DNA from: a virus
Direction: 5' to 3' (one strand)
IMG/VR virus record: IMGVR_UViG_3300032284_001308
Span: 1-58,421 of that record
Length of the DNA: 58,421 bases
Under the pieces are notes generated by a model. It was not told the DNA's origin, searched no databases, and worked only from the letters and a program-made list of their open reading frames with translations. Of the stretch, positions 32,480 to 47,140 are shown one piece after another; position 1 is the stretch's first letter, and each line of letters begins with the position of its first letter. The position numbers and the translations under genes are program-made.

Positions 32480-33418
32480 ATGAAAACGGTTGAATCAAAA
32501 GTGCTGACGGCGGATGACAAGAATGTGAATAGGGAGTTCCAAAAAGAACTTGCATTCATCCGCGACACGTCAAAGGAAGTTGACAAGCTCGATACGCAGA
32601 TCGTGGTGTCGTTGATCCGCATCCGTGACGAGAAATTGTATCGCGGAATGTATAAGAGTTTCGAGGATGCGTGCCGCGCTGAGCTGCGGATTGAGAAGTC
32701 GGAATGGTCTCGAAAACTGATCGCGGTTGAGGCTGCGGAGGCGATCAAAACTTCCCCTAAAGGGGAAGTTTTGCTCAAGGAATTGGACCTGAATCGGGCG
32801 CAGATTCTAGAGCTTGCGAACAACACGGACGACGTGGAATCGCAGGTAAAAGTGCTGCAACACATCAAAGATTCAGCATTAGAGCCGACTGCAAAACTGG
32901 TCAAAAGCGTTTGCGACGAACTTCTCCCGCCGACGAACGCGAGCCAGGAAGAGAAGGCAGAAAAGAAACGGGCGGCGGCTGCGGAACGGAAGCGACTTGC
33001 GGAAGAATCGAGGGCGGCAAAGGCTGAAGAAAAAAGACTCGCAGCCGAAAAGAAAGCAGCGGAAAAGGCGGCTGCGAAACAGGCCAGGGAAGCGGCAAAG
33101 CGTGCGTCTGGGGAAGCACCATCGGAACCAGTATCGCAATTCAACCCGGAAACGTTCGAGGAAAATCGCTCAGAACTTCCCGACGCAAAACTACGCCAGC
33201 GGATCGAGGGCGGATTAGCTGATCTGGCCGATAACATTCGAGGCGATCTGAAGCTGGTTGAGCGGACGATGAACGAGGTTGACGCATTCCACTCAAAAAC
33301 GGCGATGTCGAATCACAAAGCCTTCTGCGCGACGTTCCATCGAATCCACAACGAATTGACGACGGCGATTGAAACGGCTGTTCAGTGGGAACGAGCATGG
33401 AAAGCGGGGACTAAGTGA
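32480..33418 (+). CDS. coiled-coil protein next to helicases
   Basis: 312 residues. The N-terminal part SLIRIRDEKLYRGMYKSFEDACRAEL matches a widespread phage/plasmid segment ('L..IR...LYR...SFE.YC...'), perhaps DNA-binding. A long Glu/Lys/Ala coiled coil (about 155-215) and an acidic C-terminal domain follow. A 26-base hairpin repeat is embedded in frame (encoding KTSPKGEV) at 32747-32772. It is coupled to the SNF2 gene by a GTG overlap. Confidence 0.6.
   Translation: MKTVESKVLTADDKNVNREFQKELAFIRDTSKEVDKLDTQIVVSLIRIRDEKLYRGMYKSFEDACRAELRIEKSEWSRKLIAVEAAEAIKTSPKGEVLLKELDLNRAQILELANNTDDVESQVKVLQHIKDSALEPTAKLVKSVCDELLPPTNASQEEKAEKKRAAAAERKRLAEESRAAKAEEKRLAAEKKAAEKAAAKQAREAAKRASGEAPSEPVSQFNPETFEENRSELPDAKLRQRIEGGLADLADNIRGDLKLVERTMNEVDAFHSKTAMSNHKAFCATFHRIHNELTTAIETAVQWERAWKAGTK
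32747..32772 (+). repeat. hairpin repeat, copy 2, inside a gene
   Basis: AAAACTTCCCC, loop TAAA, GGGGAAGTTTT: an 11-bp perfect stem in frame inside the 32480 gene. It matches 582-607 at 24 of 26 positions. The compensated stem here and the mismatched one there suggest it is the cleaner copy. It has the shape of a small mobile palindromic element or a processing hairpin. Confidence 0.65.
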
Positions 33419-34803
33419 GTGACTATCGCGAGTTCATAGCACGGAAGCAGCAGGGTGGAAACGCGAACGGGTTTGAGCCGTCATTTATTCCTGAATGCAT
33501 GTTCCCGTTTCAAAAGCATCTTACGATGTGGGCAATCAGACAGGGCCGCGCGGCGTTGTTTGAGGATTGTGGCCTCGGAAAAACGCTTCAGGAGTTGGTG
33601 TTCGCGGAAAATTGTATCCGTCACACGAACCGACCAGCATTGATCCTGACTCCGCTGGCGGTCGCGGCTCAAACGGTTCGCGAAGCGGATAAGTTTGGCA
33701 TCGAGGCTGAGGTGTCTCGGAATGGCAAACCGGCATCGAACATTACTGTCACGAACTATGAATCACTGCATCGGTTTGACGAATCGGATTTCGCGGCGGT
33801 CATAGGTGATGAGATTAGTTGCCTGAAAGCGTTTGACGGCAAGAGACGAAAACAAGTCACGCGGTTCATGTCGAAGATGAAGTATCGTCTCGGTGGGACG
33901 GCGACGGCAGCGCCGAATGACTTCATCGAGTTGGGAACTATTGCTGAAGCGTTGGGCGAAATGACGCAATCCGATATGCTCGGGACGTTCTTTCTGTCGA
34001 GTGATAAGAAGCGGCATTCGCTGTTCAAGGAAGGTGACTTTTGGAACCGTGCCAAATACTTTTTCCGCGCTCATGCAGAACAGCCGTTTTGGAAGTGGGT
34101 GTGTTCGTGGGCTAGGGCGATCAGGAACCCTAGCGATCTTGGTTTTGATGATGATCGGTTTATTCTTCCCGAACTGATAGTCAATCAACAGGTCGTTGAA
34201 ACTACATTTCGATTCAATGGTGAATTGTTCGTGAGGATTGCCAGAACGCTGAAAGAGCAGCGGGAAGAACGCAAACGATCAATGCAGGATCGGTGCGAAC
34301 GAGTCGCCAAACTGGTTGACCATAAGGAACCCGCTCTCGTTTGGTGTCAGTATAACGAGGAGGGCGACATCCTCGAAAAGATGATACCAGGAGCGGTTCA
34401 GGTCGCTGGATGCAATAGCGACGATGAAAAAGCAGAACGACTGAACGGCTTCGCAACTGGTGAATTCCGGGTGCTCGTGACGAAACCGAAAATTGGTGCT
34501 TTTGGGATGAACTATCAGCACTGCGGGCATCAGACGTTCTTTCCAAGCCATTCGTTCGAACAGTGGTATCAGTGCGTGAGAAGGTCGTTGCGGTTCGGTC
34601 GAGTCGGGCCGGTTCGAGTCGATGTCGTTGCGACTGAGGGCGAAGCGGGAGTGACGGACAATTTGCAGGTGAAACAAGCCAAGGCGGACAGGATGTTTGC
34701 GAAACTCGTTCGGTACATGAACGACGCACAGAAGGTGACGCTTGTTGACAACTATACTAATCAAATGGGAGTACCATCATGGCTATCGCTGAACAATGCC
34801 TGA
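33415..34803 (+). CDS. SNF2-like helicase/translocase
   Basis: 462 residues. FQKHLTMWAIRQGRAALFEDCGLGKT (Q-motif and Walker A, Lys56), GDEISC as motif II (Asp132-Glu133), YRLGGTATAAPNDFIELG motif III, and late LVTKPKIGAFGMNYQ plus QWYQCVRRSLRFGR as motifs V/VI with the arginine finger. This compact SNF2 type is usual in phages just upstream of a methyltransferase, as here (24-base overlap). Role in DNA remodelling or recombination. Confidence 0.85.
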   Translation: MSDYREFIARKQQGGNANGFEPSFIPECMFPFQKHLTMWAIRQGRAALFEDCGLGKTLQELVFAENCIRHTNRPALILTPLAVAAQTVREADKFGIEAEVSRNGKPASNITVTNYESLHRFDESDFAAVIGDEISCLKAFDGKRRKQVTRFMSKMKYRLGGTATAAPNDFIELGTIAEALGEMTQSDMLGTFFLSSDKKRHSLFKEGDFWNRAKYFFRAHAEQPFWKWVCSWARAIRNPSDLGFDDDRFILPELIVNQQVVETTFRFNGELFVRIARTLKEQREERKRSMQDRCERVAKLVDHKEPALVWCQYNEEGDILEKMIPGAVQVAGCNSDDEKAERLNGFATGEFRVLVTKPKIGAFGMNYQHCGHQTFFPSHSFEQWYQCVRRSLRFGRVGPVRVDVVATEGEAGVTDNLQVKQAKADRMFAKLVRYMNDAQKVTLVDNYTNQMGVPSWLSLNNA

Positions 34804-35768
34804 CCGACGAATACGCTATTTACAACGCGGACTGCATGGAAGTACTGCCGGAGATTCCAGCAGAGTCGATTGACTTCACGATTTACTCTCCGCCGTTCCC
34901 GTTGATGTATGCTTACTCGAATGATCCGCGTGACATGTCGAACTGCACGTCGTATCAGGAAGGACTTGACCAGTATCAGTACGTCGTGAATGAGATTCAT
35001 CGGCTCACGAAGCCAGGACGGTTGACAGCCGTTCACTGCATGGACTTGCCAAAGTCGAAACTTACTAAAAACCCGTTTCCGGAAGATATCACGAGAGCAC
35101 ACATCAAAGCGGGATTCCATTACGACTGCACGATCACGATCTGGAAAGATCCTTGGTTGATCGCACGACGAACCAGGATGAAGACGCTACGTCACATGGA
35201 CCTTTGCAACGACTCAGCGGGTGTTCAGGTCGGTCCGGCGGATTACATCAAAGTCTTCATCAAGGGTGGGCAAAACGCCGAACCGATTCGACATCCTGAA
35301 GGGCTGAAGACTTACGCTGGTGAGCGTGAAATCCCTGCCGATCTCGTAGCACGGTTCAAGAATTACAAAGGCGATCAGAAAAAGAATCTTCTCAGTCACT
35401 GGATCTGGAGAAACTACGCTTCTCCGGTCTGGATGGACATTCGATTAGGCCGATTGCTTCCCTACATGGACTCTAAAGAGAACGAAGAGGAAAAGCACGT
35501 CTGCCCGTTGCAACTCGACGTTATCGAGCGGTTGTTGACTCTGTATTCAAATCCCGGTGACAAAGTGCTGACGCCGTTTATGGGCGTTGGGTCAGAACCG
35601 TTTCAATCTGTCTCGATGGGTCGTAAGGCTCTGGGCGTGGAGTTGAAACCATCGTATTACCGGCAGGCTAAAAAGAACCTCGAAGCGTGCAATGCTGGTG
35701 CGGAGATTCCGGTTGAGGCGTCGCTCTTAGATTTCATGGACGAAGAATCCGAGTTGCAGGAAGTTTGA
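34779..35768 (+). CDS. DNA methyltransferase, beta class (N4-cytosine or N6-adenine)
   Basis: 329 residues. Motif IV SPPF at 37-40 near the start and motif I TPFMGVGSEP (about 260) near the end make the beta-class order; EFKPSYYRQA-like motif X follows. SPP(F/Y) is more often N4-cytosine than N6-adenine, so base specificity is open. No restriction subunit is beside it, so it is an orphan enzyme giving anti-restriction or regulatory methylation along with the Mom protein. Confidence 0.85.
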   Translation: MAIAEQCLTDEYAIYNADCMEVLPEIPAESIDFTIYSPPFPLMYAYSNDPRDMSNCTSYQEGLDQYQYVVNEIHRLTKPGRLTAVHCMDLPKSKLTKNPFPEDITRAHIKAGFHYDCTITIWKDPWLIARRTRMKTLRHMDLCNDSAGVQVGPADYIKVFIKGGQNAEPIRHPEGLKTYAGEREIPADLVARFKNYKGDQKKNLLSHWIWRNYASPVWMDIRLGRLLPYMDSKENEEEKHVCPLQLDVIERLLTLYSNPGDKVLTPFMGVGSEPFQSVSMGRKALGVELKPSYYRQAKKNLEACNAGAEIPVEASLLDFMDEESELQEV

Positions 35769-41769: not shown

Positions 41770-42003
41770 ATGGCAGTAAGCAGCGAACAGATTTTGGATT
41801 TCCTGGCGGAAGTGAATAAGGATCTTCCGGAGGTCGTCGATTTCGTGAATGAGTTGGAATCGAATACGGCATTGAATGCGAAGTTGATTGCCGCGTTTCC
41901 ATTGTTGAAAACAGCCGAAGACGCATTGCCGATCATCCAAAGTCGAATCGGTTTTTTTCAGCGGTTTGCGGCTGCGATCCTGAAATTCTGGCCAGCGTCT
42001 TGA
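41770..42003 (+). CDS. small helical protein, unknown
   Basis: 77 residues from ATG 41770 (AAAAAGGACG upstream). Helices EQILDFLAEVNKDLPEVVDFVNELE and AEDALPIIQSRIGFFQRFAAAILKFW, the last one hydrophobic and possibly membrane-touching. Its TGA overlaps a TTG of the next gene. It heads the protease cluster. Function unknown. Confidence 0.5.
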   Translation: MAVSSEQILDFLAEVNKDLPEVVDFVNELESNTALNAKLIAAFPLLKTAEDALPIIQSRIGFFQRFAAAILKFWPAS

Positions 42004-42014
42004 AAGAGATTGAG

Positions 42015-42824
42015 ATGTCAACCGGACCAGTAACGCCGAAAACTGAACCGATAATCCAGCCGTGGATGAACACGTTGCTTGGATTGGCGGTCGCGGCGTA
42101 CACGGCATACGTTCACGCATCGATTCAGGTTGTCGTTCCGACTCCCGACGTGAAGCCCGCGCCGGTTGTCGATCCGCACGGACTGACGATCACGGACAGG
42201 CACGGCAACACGATCACGGACACGGTTGACGCTGGGCATCAGTTCACAATCGACGGGTCTGCGGGAACGACACTGACGCCAATTCCGAGCGTTGCTGACG
42301 ATGCCGATATCACTGAGGTCAGCGACTCCAGGCTGATTTGCACGATGCGAAACGGTTGCAAACTTCAGATCGTCGTGACGGGTGCGGGTAAACCTTCGGT
42401 AATCGCGGTGACGTGCAATCATGCTCCGAATCCTCCACCAGTCGATCCAGTGAAGCCGGTTGTTGATCCGACTCCGAAACCATCAGGGGCCGTTCGTGTC
42501 GTCATATTCAAGGACGCGTTAGGCAAAGCTCTCACGAAAGATCAGGTCGCGGCGATTGGTTCCACAAAGATGAAAGCGTTACTTGACGAGCGATGTGCTA
42601 AGGATGCGGCGGGGCTTCCGGCGTGGCACGTTTGGGATAAGGACATCACGCCACCAGACGCGTGGGCAAAATTGGTCACGGCGACACGATCAGAGATCGC
42701 ATCGAAGAATCTCGACTTTCCCATTCTGGCAATCGAGGTCGGTAACACGCTGCATCTGTATGAGATCACGAACGAGACTGCGGTTCTGAATACACTCAAT
42801 TCTGTATTCGGGGAGGCGACGTGA
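42015..42824 (+). CDS. membrane-anchored protein with Pro-rich linker
   Basis: 269 residues from ATG 42015 (AGAG six bases upstream). One N-terminal membrane span (MNTLLGLAVAAYTAYVHASIQVVV, about 19-42), a beta domain (GLTITDRHGNTITDTVDAGHQFTIDGS), a cysteine pair (ICTMRNGCKL), a Pro/Val linker (PVDPVKPVVDPTPKPS) and a C-terminal alpha/beta domain (VRVVIFKDALGKAL...). Span first and domains after suggest N-in, C-out topology. It overlaps the papain-like gene, so the two are coupled. No known family. Confidence 0.6.
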   Translation: MSTGPVTPKTEPIIQPWMNTLLGLAVAAYTAYVHASIQVVVPTPDVKPAPVVDPHGLTITDRHGNTITDTVDAGHQFTIDGSAGTTLTPIPSVADDADITEVSDSRLICTMRNGCKLQIVVTGAGKPSVIAVTCNHAPNPPPVDPVKPVVDPTPKPSGAVRVVIFKDALGKALTKDQVAAIGSTKMKALLDERCAKDAAGLPAWHVWDKDITPPDAWAKLVTATRSEIASKNLDFPILAIEVGNTLHLYEITNETAVLNTLNSVFGEAT

Positions 42825-43588
42825 CCGAACTCGTTATCAACGACGATACGCATTGGCGAGAATACCACCCGCAGATACAGGGATTTGGTACAGGGTGGGA
42901 AAAAGCTGCGGACGTTGGCTATGGTGCGACAGCAGAGCCATTCCCGGACTCGTTGTTGTTGCCGTGGGATGAGATCAATCGACGGGCAGCGGAACGGGAA
43001 GCGACACAAACGCAACTGTCTCACAAGATTCGTGCGGCGGGGATGAAACCGCTCAATCAGCAAAACACGAATTTTTGCTTCGCGAACGCTCCGACAAATT
43101 GCGTCCGAATCTTGACGCTGTTGGCGAATCAACCGTTAGTCGAACTGTCTGCGGCGTCGGTTGGTTGCACGGTCACCGGATTCCGCAACGTCGGCGGATG
43201 GGCAAAAGACGCTCTCGATGTGATCCGAACGAAAGGCATCGTCCCGATTCAATACTGGCCATTGAACGCGATCAGCCAGCAATACAACACGACAGCGAAC
43301 TGGGCGAAAGCAGCGCCGTTCAAGGTCGATAAATGGATCGTGCTGGAGCAAGGAAACCTACAACAGCGGGCATCGTTGAACGTGCAAGATATTCCTGTCG
43401 CGGTCGCTTATGACTGGTGGGGTCACGAGGTTACTGGTTGCGATTACCTTCCCGATGGATCGTTCCGAGACTGGAACTCGTGGGGGCCAACATACGGCGA
43501 CAACGGTTTCTTCCTTGTGCAAGGTAATCGACGTGTATTCGCGGACGGAATCGCGGCGTTATCGGTCACAGGAGGGCTTTCGGTATGA
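42821..43588 (+). CDS. papain-like cysteine protease (C1 type)
   Basis: 255 residues from GTG 42821. Catalytic elements are in papain order: Gln80/81 and Cys86 in NQQNTNFCFANA, His202 in WWGHEVTGCDYL, Asn219 in RDWNSWGPTYGDNGFFLV, the last being the hallmark 'NSWG...G..G(Y/F)' of C1 peptidases. No signal peptide is seen, so it acts inside, is released by lysis or rides in the virion. Coupled on both sides (GTGA, ATGA). Possible roles: wall or surface proteolysis at lysis, or processing of phage or host proteins. Confidence 0.82.
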   Translation: MTELVINDDTHWREYHPQIQGFGTGWEKAADVGYGATAEPFPDSLLLPWDEINRRAAEREATQTQLSHKIRAAGMKPLNQQNTNFCFANAPTNCVRILTLLANQPLVELSAASVGCTVTGFRNVGGWAKDALDVIRTKGIVPIQYWPLNAISQQYNTTANWAKAAPFKVDKWIVLEQGNLQQRASLNVQDIPVAVAYDWWGHEVTGCDYLPDGSFRDWNSWGPTYGDNGFFLVQGNRRVFADGIAALSVTGGLSV

Positions 43589-43791
43589 GCAACCAAAAAC
43601 CATTCGGCGGCATCCTGTGCGGTGACGTGCTGTTCTATTACTGCCAGTTCAGCAATGTGAACGTGTCGTTCACGGCGAACTATCCAGCGGTGACGGTAGT
43701 GAATGGACTGTATACGCAAGTGATTAACGGTCGATCATCGCGCGGGGCTGACGTGATTGTTCCTGTCGGTAAGGTGCTCAGAAAAGAATGA
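43585..43791 (+). CDS. small beta protein, unknown
   Basis: 68 residues (ATGA overlap with the protease). KPFGGILCGDVLFYYCQFSNVNVSFTANYPAVTVVNGLYTQVINGRSSRGADVIVPVGKVL reads as beta strands with two cysteines. The size and coupling to the protease would suit a propeptide-like inhibitor or chaperone, but this is inferred. Confidence 0.5.
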   Translation: MSNQKPFGGILCGDVLFYYCQFSNVNVSFTANYPAVTVVNGLYTQVINGRSSRGADVIVPVGKVLRKE

Positions 43792-43848: not shown

Positions 43849-44817
43849 ATGCGGAAAACCATCGGAAATGTCGTGATAGGATTCACGATGTTTGCTTGCC
43901 AGTGCCTTGCTGCCGATCCGGTCGTGATCGTGCATCGCGGCTACGAAACGCAAGTCCACACGGCATCGAAACCGGACGTGATGCGGTACGCGGTCAAACT
44001 TCAGGCGGGGCATCGTGAGATGCTCGCAAGCGGCGTCAATGTCGCGGGCGGCATCGTGACGTGTGCCCATGTCGTTGATGGATTCAAAACATTCACGGTC
44101 GATTGTGACGGCGAGCGAGCGACGGCAACTGTCGCGCGGGTCGATAAAGAGCACGACCTCGCATTCATGACGGTCACATGGGCGAAACCGCATCCGGTCG
44201 CGGTGATTGCCACGAGCGGGCCAGCGGCGAAAGATACGATCCAATCTGCGGGACGGCATCGCGACGGGCTTCTGACGCTCGAATCGCACACGTATTTACG
44301 GACGGAAAACGGCGAGTATCTGTACTCGAATCCGCCACAAGAGGGACGCAGCGGAAGCGGAATCTTCAACGCGAACGGTCAGCTTGTCGGGATCGTGCTC
44401 GGGAAGATCGTTGACGAGGAGCCATTTATCGGGCGGTCGGCAACTGTTGAACAAATTCGCGGGATCGTTGGCGTTGGATCGTCCGGTTTAACCTGGGGAA
44501 CGGAATACAACGCGGCATTATTGGAGCGGTCGAAAGCGGAGAACAGGCCGATCCTGGTCATGCTCACGGCTAAATGGTGCATTCCCTGCAAGCAATTGAA
44601 GCAGACTCTCGAATCGATGGACCTGGACGGATATTTGCCGATCCTGATCGATACGGACGAGCAAAAGAACATAGCGGCGGCGTTTGGCGTTACGTCGATT
44701 CCGGTGATTCAGGTTGTCACACCAGACGCGAAGCTAGGCAAGCGGCTTGTCGGGAATCAATCGGCGGAAACATTGGAGAAAGAACTAACGGTCAGTGTCA
44801 CCCGCTCTAATAGGTAG
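43849..44817 (+). CDS. exported trypsin-like protease fused to thioredoxin
   Basis: 322 residues. A signal peptide (MRKTIGNVVIGFTMFACQCLAAD, cut near AA-D) leads to the periplasm or outside. The trypsin-like/HtrA-type domain has His74 (VTCAHVVDG), Asp103 (EHDLAFMTV) and Ser168 (EGRSGSGIF). From about residue 228 comes a thioredoxin fold with active site WCIPCK (Cys254, Cys257) and cis-Pro285 (TSIPVIQ). GGAGG precedes ATG 43849. A disulfide reductase joined to a protease would open and cut disulfide-bonded proteins. No PDZ domain. I do not know this fusion from other phages. Confidence 0.85.
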   Translation: MRKTIGNVVIGFTMFACQCLAADPVVIVHRGYETQVHTASKPDVMRYAVKLQAGHREMLASGVNVAGGIVTCAHVVDGFKTFTVDCDGERATATVARVDKEHDLAFMTVTWAKPHPVAVIATSGPAAKDTIQSAGRHRDGLLTLESHTYLRTENGEYLYSNPPQEGRSGSGIFNANGQLVGIVLGKIVDEEPFIGRSATVEQIRGIVGVGSSGLTWGTEYNAALLERSKAENRPILVMLTAKWCIPCKQLKQTLESMDLDGYLPILIDTDEQKNIAAAFGVTSIPVIQVVTPDAKLGKRLVGNQSAETLEKELTVSVTRSNR

Positions 44818-44893: not shown

Positions 44894-45301
44894 ATGTTGG
44901 ATTCACTATTAGCGTTCATGGGATTAAGAATGAGACCATCACAGGGCGACATCGACCGCGACCAGGAATCGCCGTTGGTGGTCGGGTTGCGTGCGACGAT
45001 GACGACGCAGAAGGAATCCATCGAGTTCTGGCAGAAGGAAGCGAAACAACTCGACTTCGATCTCAAGGACAAGGAAACAGAAAACGCCAAACTCCGAAAC
45101 GCACTCACAAACGCGGACAAGTGCGAGCGTGTGAGGCTGGAGCAATTGCGGGAAATACAAGCGGCGAACGATGCCTTAGTGTCAGCACTCGACGACATTG
45201 CCGAACGTGCGAAATCCGTCAAGAGCAGTATCGACGGAATAGCGGTTGAGCCTTATGATACGCGGGGAATTATCGACACTAAGAGTTATGGAAGCGACTG
45301 A
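44894..45301 (+). CDS. coiled-coil protein, unknown
   Basis: 135 residues with a strong GGGGGAGTGAG site. A hydrophobic start (MLDSLLAFMGLRM) is followed by a long coiled coil (LRATMTTQKESIEFWQKEAKQLDFDLKDKETENAKLRNALTNADKCERVRLEQLREIQAANDAL). The start could be membrane-associated. It sits in the membrane cluster; spanin-like or structural roles are possible. Confidence 0.55.
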   Translation: MLDSLLAFMGLRMRPSQGDIDRDQESPLVVGLRATMTTQKESIEFWQKEAKQLDFDLKDKETENAKLRNALTNADKCERVRLEQLREIQAANDALVSALDDIAERAKSVKSSIDGIAVEPYDTRGIIDTKSYGSD

Positions 45302-45670: not shown

Positions 45671-45686
45671 TTTGCAGGGCCGCAAC

Positions 45687-46025
45687 ATGGCTGAAGAACA
45701 ACATGCCGTTATCGTCGATTCATTTTCACCGTGGGAACGTCGGTTAGAGAAGCACGGCTGGCCGACATTGCTGCTGCTTATTGTCGGGCTTGTCGCGTGG
45801 CGGTTTTCGGACTGGTTTCAGCCGAAAGTAGACGAAGCGATCACAAAGCACTTCACGTTCATGGAAGCCGTCAAGAATACGCAGGAAAAACAGGCAGAAA
45901 ACGGGTCTGTTCTCGCAACTCAACAAACCAAGATCGGCGATATTCTGGAGAGACAGGAACGCCGAACAGAAGAAATGGCCGACAGGATCAAGGACGTTCA
46001 CAAAACACTCGTTAAGCCGAACTAA
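45687..46025 (+). CDS. one-span membrane protein with coiled coil
   Basis: 112 residues from ATG 45687. After a polar N-terminus comes one span (WPTLLLLIVGLVAWRFSDWF, about residues 25-44) and then a helical part with a coiled coil (VKNTQEKQAENGSVLATQQTKIGDILERQERRTEEMADRIKD). This shape occurs in holins and spanin-like proteins. Stop overlaps the next start (TAATG). Confidence 0.55.
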   Translation: MAEEQHAVIVDSFSPWERRLEKHGWPTLLLLIVGLVAWRFSDWFQPKVDEAITKHFTFMEAVKNTQEKQAENGSVLATQQTKIGDILERQERRTEEMADRIKDVHKTLVKPN

Positions 46026-46279
46026 TGCCAATACGTGCGGGCCGTCCTTTACGACTTGAGTTGTACGGTCTCGCGGTTGCAGGGACGGTAGTATGCTTTT
46101 GGTTGAGCGATAGGATTCGAGTTCAGTCAGAGATTCAGAAAAAGATCGTCAGCGAATTAGAGCGTCCGAACATTGTCCAAAACAACAATCAACAAGTGAC
46201 AATTGAATCGGACGCGATGAAACTTGCACGAGAGATTTTGATAAAGGAAGACAATGGCAACATGCCAGGAACTAAATGA
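46025..46279 (+). CDS. one-span membrane protein, unknown
   Basis: 84 residues. A short basic start (MPIRAGRPLRLELYG), a span (LAVAGTVVCFWLSDRI), then a polar helix with NNNQQ. ATGA-style overlap with the gene before, and its 3' end overlaps the next by 26 bases. Candidate holin, antiholin or spanin part. Confidence 0.5.
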   Translation: MPIRAGRPLRLELYGLAVAGTVVCFWLSDRIRVQSEIQKKIVSELERPNIVQNNNQQVTIESDAMKLAREILIKEDNGNMPGTK

Positions 46280-46624: not shown

Positions 46625-47140
46625 ATGGAGTCACTGTTGCAAGTGATTCCGCGTCTCCGTCACGTCAAGTCAACGCACGGCGCGGTGTTGTTCTGGTGGG
46701 GTCGATCATACTTGCTGAAATCGGGATTGCACGTTTACTGGCCGGTTTGCTCGGAGATTGTTGAAGCGTCAATGGTGCGTCGGACTCACAATCTAACGTA
46801 CCAGGATCTTGTCACGAGCGACGACGTTCAGGCGACGATAGCGGTGACGGTGGTATATCAAATCGTGGACGTTCACGCGGCGATTACAAAAACGGACGAT
46901 ATCGCGGACACGATCAGCGATCTTGCAGGGCGAGCGATCATTGAGATTTGCGGAGACTCGACAGCGAAAGAGGTAAGGCGACGGCGGAAGGATGACGGGC
47001 GCAAAATTGACTTACTGTTGCGTCGAATGATGAGTCACGATCTTGCAGAGTTTGGCGTCAAGGTTCGGCGGGCGTTTATTTGCGAAGTGTCAACACCACG
47101 GATGATACGACTCATAAGCAATCACGGGAGTTTTAATTGA
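46625..47140 (+). CDS. SPFH/Band 7-like protein
   Basis: 171 residues. The pattern GLHVYWPVCSEIVEASMVRRTHNLTYQDLVTSDDVQATIAVTVVYQIVDVHAAITKTDDIADTISDLAGRAI is typical of stomatin/prohibitin SPFH domains (early 'YWP', 'T.D.V...' strand, then a helix). It lacks the long C-terminal oligomerisation coil. SPFH proteins build membrane cages and guard proteases. In a phage it might remodel host membranes at lysis or block a host protease. Start ATG 46625; the protein may start further upstream at a non-standard codon. Confidence 0.65.
   Translation: MESLLQVIPRLRHVKSTHGAVLFWWGRSYLLKSGLHVYWPVCSEIVEASMVRRTHNLTYQDLVTSDDVQATIAVTVVYQIVDVHAAITKTDDIADTISDLAGRAIIEICGDSTAKEVRRRRKDDGRKIDLLLRRMMSHDLAEFGVKVRRAFICEVSTPRMIRLISNHGSFN

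Follow-up and report, generated by a model that had tools for sequence, protein, structure and literature searches.

The phage genome IMGVR_UViG_3300032284_001308 encodes a genuine fusion, predicted to be exported, in which a trypsin-like serine protease is joined to a thioredoxin, both probably active, as the intact catalytic residues suggest. Gene order in related contigs places this fusion at the "thioredoxin slot" within a conserved cassette whose other members are a membrane anchor and a papain-like C1 peptidase; the slot can hold an exported thioredoxin, such a fusion, a protease or a small Cys-rich protein. The fusion consists of known domain families in a novel arrangement, and the cassette around it, widespread in uncultured phages (41 clusters), had no apparent description in the open-access literature searched.

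The window, meaning the whole stretch of DNA analysed, spans an entire IMG/VR virus record, 58,421 bases long. It encoded a terminase, a portal protein, an S49 head protease, an HK97-type capsid protein and an integrase. The record is thus that of a temperate tailed phage, and its label as a phage stands.

The ORF of the fusion was uninterrupted over 322 codons, with an ATG start behind a strong ribosome-binding site (CAGGAGGCGGCAAC-ATG). The third-position GC content was close between its two halves (0.656 and 0.667). Both domains scored above their Pfam cut-offs in this one open frame, as the sequence-only reading had proposed: Trypsin_2 (PF13365) at residues 61–182 (E = 4.6e-16, 60.3 bits, cut-off 27.6) and Thioredoxin (PF00085) at residues 226–313 (E = 1.1e-10, 41.9 bits, cut-off 23.5). 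That reading had also allowed for a frameshift or an assembly join at about position 44530. We found neither; both are ruled out by the continuous ORF, its ribosome-binding site and an independent fusion at the equivalent locus of another contig, L135.

The catalytic triad was recognized as His74 in TCAHVV, Asp103 in HDLAF and Ser168 in EGRSGSG, and it lined up in sequence with that of the MarP protease (PDB 3k6z). All aligned phage trypsin-like relatives retained these three residues. Cys72 lies two residues ahead of the catalytic His, and a redox switch at this position is possible. His74, Asp103, Ser168 and Pro285, the latter being the cis-Pro within SIP, are at the positions first given for them. 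The redox pair had been misplaced at residues 254 and 257, which are Leu and Met; the true CxxC is Cys244/Cys247. All aligned cassette thioredoxins retained the CxxC and the cis-Pro. The signal peptide claimed earlier corresponds to a hydrophobic helix at residues 2–20, as seen in the model and by hydropathy. The AlphaFold model, computed from an alignment of 22 sequences, had two folded domains (mean pLDDT 78.8).

The protease domain was structurally closest to the periplasmic serine proteases of the MarP/HtrA family (DegS, DegP and MarP, Rv3671c), at Z of about 22–24, and shares with them the fold and the catalytic triad. It differs from them in lacking a PDZ domain (no match at E up to 1, the C-terminus being the thioredoxin) and the N-terminal membrane domain of MarP, and in carrying the appended thioredoxin. 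Against the MarP family NF033740 (NCBIfam) the fusion scored 34.6 bits, below the 250-bit cut-off. The second domain has the CxxC (WCIPC), the cis-Pro and the fold in common with thioredoxins and periplasmic thioredoxin-like proteins; unlike these, it is predicted to be exported joined to a protease. Its score against the thioredoxin equivalog TIGR01068 was 46.9 bits, below the cut-off of 96.8.

Table 1 Features of the cassette and its surroundings in the window.
Feature	Coordinates	Strand	Basis
Stalk protein predicted to be membrane-anchored: TM helix, then a beta-rich Ig-like domain and, at the C-terminus, a thioredoxin-fold domain lacking CxxC	42000..42824	+	Model mcac64ba7a750
Papain-like C1 peptidase of 255 aa lacking a signal peptide; predicted catalytic Gln80/Cys86/His202/Asn219	42821..43588	+	PF00112, conservation
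Small ORF, 68 aa, between C1 peptidase and fusion	43585..43791	+	ORF list
Predicted exported trypsin-like (HtrA/MarP-type) serine protease plus active-site thioredoxin, 322 aa	43849..44817	+	Single ORF with ribosome-binding site, Pfam, AlphaFold
Signal-peptide-like hydrophobic N-terminus, residues 1–22	43849..43914	+	Model, hydropathy
Serine protease domain, His74/Asp103/Ser168	44029..44394	+	PF13365 match at exactly these coordinates; MarP alignment
Thioredoxin domain, Cys244/Cys247 (WCIPC), cis-Pro285	44524..44787	+	PF00085, residues 226–313; residue positions
Coiled-coil small protein, weak resemblance to Rz-like spanin	44894..45301	+	PHROG 9841 (E = 0.008), by itself not significant
Small protein with a single hydrophobic segment (putative TM) and a charged tail resembling a coiled coil; candidate holin/spanin partner	45672..46025	+	Sequence inspection
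Small protein with a single hydrophobic segment (putative TM); candidate holin/spanin partner	46025..46279	+	Sequence inspection

No full-length match to the fusion was found among 50,697 annotated phage genomes (INPHARED), which agrees with the earlier remark that this fusion is not known among phage proteins, nor among 72,556 plasmids (PLSDB). A direct pattern search of IMG/VR with the fusion protein gave no match, and in one genome-collection scan its sole match was a Flavobacteriaceae thioredoxin. Relatives in IMG/VR were reached through the phage-conserved helicase of the window (33415–34803), which as a query recovered 53 related contigs, and then through the C1 peptidase. The fusion of L135 has the same domain order as that of the window, lies directly 3′ of a C1 peptidase and matched it in a full-length comparison with E = 1e-9. 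Three contigs carried thioredoxin-first fusions: L039, which was among the 53 helicase-derived contigs, L170 and L171. The L039 protein has 410 aa, is exported, and runs from a thioredoxin (YCQPC) through the protease to a collagen-like tail. Those of L170 (879–2591) and L171 (2383–3927) have a hydrophobic segment at either terminus together with a Cys-rich motif; neither contig yielded a C1 peptidase. L168 is a possible further fusion: a trypsin domain followed by a CPPC stretch comes after its C1 peptidase, the stretch having no significant thioredoxin match by Pfam or by a custom profile. Most phage trypsin-like proteins recovered (L088–L101) had no thioredoxin, and exported thioredoxin-free forms were common. 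The existence of both domain orders implies at least two independent joinings, or a rearrangement between the orders, and this recurrence suggests a coupling of proteolysis to disulfide chemistry in the phages concerned.

The C1 peptidase matched PF00112 with E = 5.7e-6 (27 bits, cut-off 20.7). Scans with C1 alignments yielded 68 C1 proteins, which grouped into 41 clusters at 90% identity; the sampling favoured one motif. Equivalents of Gln80, Cys86, His202 and Asn219 were invariant in all 65 C1 sequences longer than 200 residues. One C1 member searched against the 50,697 annotated phage genomes had no match. In 36 of the 41 clusters a member of the anchor family immediately preceded C1; homologues of the two also adjoin each other in L040. 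An exported thioredoxin adjoined C1 in 13 clusters (nine downstream, four upstream), the protease-thioredoxin fusion filled the slot in two (the window and L135), and the protease alone in one (L126). All exported slot thioredoxins had a CxxC, and the slot of L144 held a CSVC thioredoxin-like protein missed by the profile. Other slots held small exported Cys-rich proteins, and some had neither thioredoxin nor protease. Counting ORFs of 100 aa or more in C1-bearing loci, with redundant loci counted separately, 30 of the 374 lying within 400 nt of C1 matched the thioredoxin profile, against none of the 1459 farther off. Most C1 proteins had no signal peptide. In L146, anchor and C1 form a single chain behind an N-terminal hydrophobic segment, which points to a location of C1 outside the cytoplasm.

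The genes following C1 in L104, L105, L106, L126, L137 and L151 encode small exported proteins with paired cysteines and then a basic tail (for example LFGRWR or RLFRR). In L040 the gene past C1 (14945–15697) encodes a secreted protein that combines a methyltransferase-like domain with a Cys-rich motif.

The anchor family had no Pfam match. The model of the anchor protein of the window had a TM helix at residues 17–37, followed by a beta-rich domain and, at the C-terminus, by a beta-alpha-beta-alpha-beta-beta-alpha domain, the last with pLDDT above 90. The best Foldseek match was a thioredoxin (probability 1.00, E = 0.027). Nearly all of the 50 VIA-align rows were thioredoxins or thioredoxin-like proteins, at modest Z values of 6.7–7.6 and in a comparison that effectively covered the C-terminal domain only. 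Since the anchor has a predicted thioredoxin fold and no CxxC, the models predict that the cassette pairs a stalked, membrane-bound thioredoxin fold that is non-catalytic with a separate thioredoxin carrying a redox-active CxxC.

The cassette was found on several distinct phage backbones, near terminase, portal or tail-fibre-like genes, and in several cases it directly adjoined terminase or portal genes from different families. Lysis cassettes often adjoin terminase genes. Around many cassettes lay small proteins, each with one or two hydrophobic segments; of the two of this type in the window, the one at 45672 had no PHROG lysis match and the one at 46025 no PHROG match. No peptidoglycan-hydrolase Pfam family was found among the about 70 ORFs of the window. 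Amidase_2, Phage_lysozyme, Peptidase_M15_4, Glyco_hydro_19, CHAP and SLT were absent from 20 cassette-bearing IMG/VR records, which may be fragments, so that the absence has limited meaning. The same six families were also missing from six of eight control phage records (two matched, one of them below the cut-off), which makes the contrast weak. Directly past the cassette of the window there is a gene for an SPFH/Band 7 family protein (46625–47140).

We tentatively favour, at somewhat under an even chance, an exported module of proteolysis and disulfide reduction that would target the host envelope, probably during lysis. The cassette would be expressed late in infection, and the anchor, perhaps also C1, would act on the periplasmic side. 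There the thioredoxin would reduce disulfides of envelope proteins, hold the catalytic cysteine of C1 reduced in the oxidising periplasm, or both, and the serine protease domain, tethered to the reductase, would digest the substrates thus opened. The purpose would be to take apart a protein-rich, disulfide-stabilised envelope for phage release, in the manner of an endolysin/spanin set but through proteolysis and reduction. This reading is argued for by the intact active sites, the recurrence of the fusion, its linkage to C1 and to the anchor, the confinement of thioredoxins to the neighbourhood of C1, the topology of L146, the hydrophobic small neighbours, the proximity to terminase and portal genes, and the lack of recognized peptidoglycan hydrolases in the window and of the six endolysin families in the 20 records. 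Against it stand the peptidoglycan of planctomycetes, the mostly signal-less C1 proteins, the slots with neither thioredoxin nor protease, and the absence of a PHROG lysis assignment. A periplasmic thioredoxin would also need an electron source. In a stronger version, possible but doubtful, the cassette would serve for lysis (or entry) without peptidoglycan hydrolysis, a protein-based envelope being reduced at its disulfides and proteolysed instead, with the fusion as a one-chain reductase and second protease. If true, such a class of phage lysis enzyme would have no description in the literature searched.

The putative lysis cassette described here resembles holin-endolysin-spanin cassettes in being compact, in its presumably late-gene neighbourhood, in its small proteins with hydrophobic segments, in its predicted membrane-anchored partner and in a hydrolase, C1, that lacks its own signal peptide. 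It differs in having a papain-like peptidase as hydrolase, a thioredoxin as partner enzyme and no known peptidoglycan hydrolase. Papain-like CHAP and cysteine-amidase endolysins share with C1 the Cys-His papain topology, there used in lysis, and an effect of DTT on such enzymes is reported (PMC8586454). In contrast to CHAP, the neighbour of the fusion has its match in Peptidase_C1 itself and carries the Gln-Cys-His-Asn and NSWG motifs.

For the host there was only a hint, towards the Planctomycetota. The head-tail connector matched the Planctopirus limnophila phage-plasmid pPLIM01 at 39% identity across 47% of the connector's length; no C1 match was found in pPLIM01. An at least equally good match was to a Paraburkholderia megaplasmid (32% over 86%), and the capsid matched Proteobacteria only, so that the planctomycete assignment is tentative. 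Neither a tRNA nor an Rfam match emerged from a search for tRNA/attP remnants as host clues, and T-loop-like motifs were at chance level. Planctomycete envelopes were reported to be made of disulfide-stabilised protein (PMC3035269), which would fit an envelope-directed module; according to later work, planctomycetes do contain peptidoglycan (PMC4432640). If the cassette dismantles envelopes, it would offer a testable route of phage exit from hosts whose walls are protein-rich and disulfide-linked, as well as a means to open these cells.

The resemblance of the protease fold to DegS, DegP and MarP also suits a helper in envelope folding and quality control, in which a DegP-like protease and thiol-disulfide exchange aid or clear exported Cys-containing phage proteins and have no direct role in lysis. 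The small exported Cys-rich proteins that fill the slot in other phages fit this as well. However, the fusion has no PDZ domain, and the constant C1 partner and the thioredoxin-fold anchor would be left unexplained; we regard such a helper as unlikely. The sequence-only reading had suggested an attack on host surface receptors, secreted toxins or defence proteins. Its exported enzyme pair stands, but the context of the C1 and anchor cassette moves the likely role from a stand-alone weapon towards a host-envelope module. Superinfection exclusion, by modification of host surface proteins, or inactivation of secreted toxins would suit a temperate phage with an integrase, and C1 and serine proteases would be able to strip surface proteins. 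Yet the cassette lies near terminase, portal and tail-fibre-like genes on several backbones and not as an isolated moron, and PADLOC matched the fusion only to RT-protease models (E = 4e-6), through a generic resemblance of the trypsin domain; we consider this role rather improbable.

We see a small chance that the thioredoxin domain mainly switches its own protease domain, for example through Cys72 or Cys86. A cysteine two residues ahead of the catalytic His is present also in L135, L090, L092 and L168, whereas many protease relatives, the thioredoxin-fused L039 included, have Ala at this site. The lack of full-length relatives in annotated phages and plasmids would be expected of an accidental or recent acquisition of a host gene, a moron whose domains are joined without a specific phage function. 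But the fusion recurs in both domain orders and at an equivalent position of the cassette; L135 already largely refutes such an acquisition, and we consider it very unlikely.

Elsewhere in the window, the helicase forms a gene pair with an N6/N4 DNA methylase (33415–35768), which had up to 84% identity across the 53 otherwise differing IMG/VR contigs. The ORFs of the window also included a Mom-family DNA-modification protein, a DUF6378 protein, and ERF and YqaJ recombination proteins.
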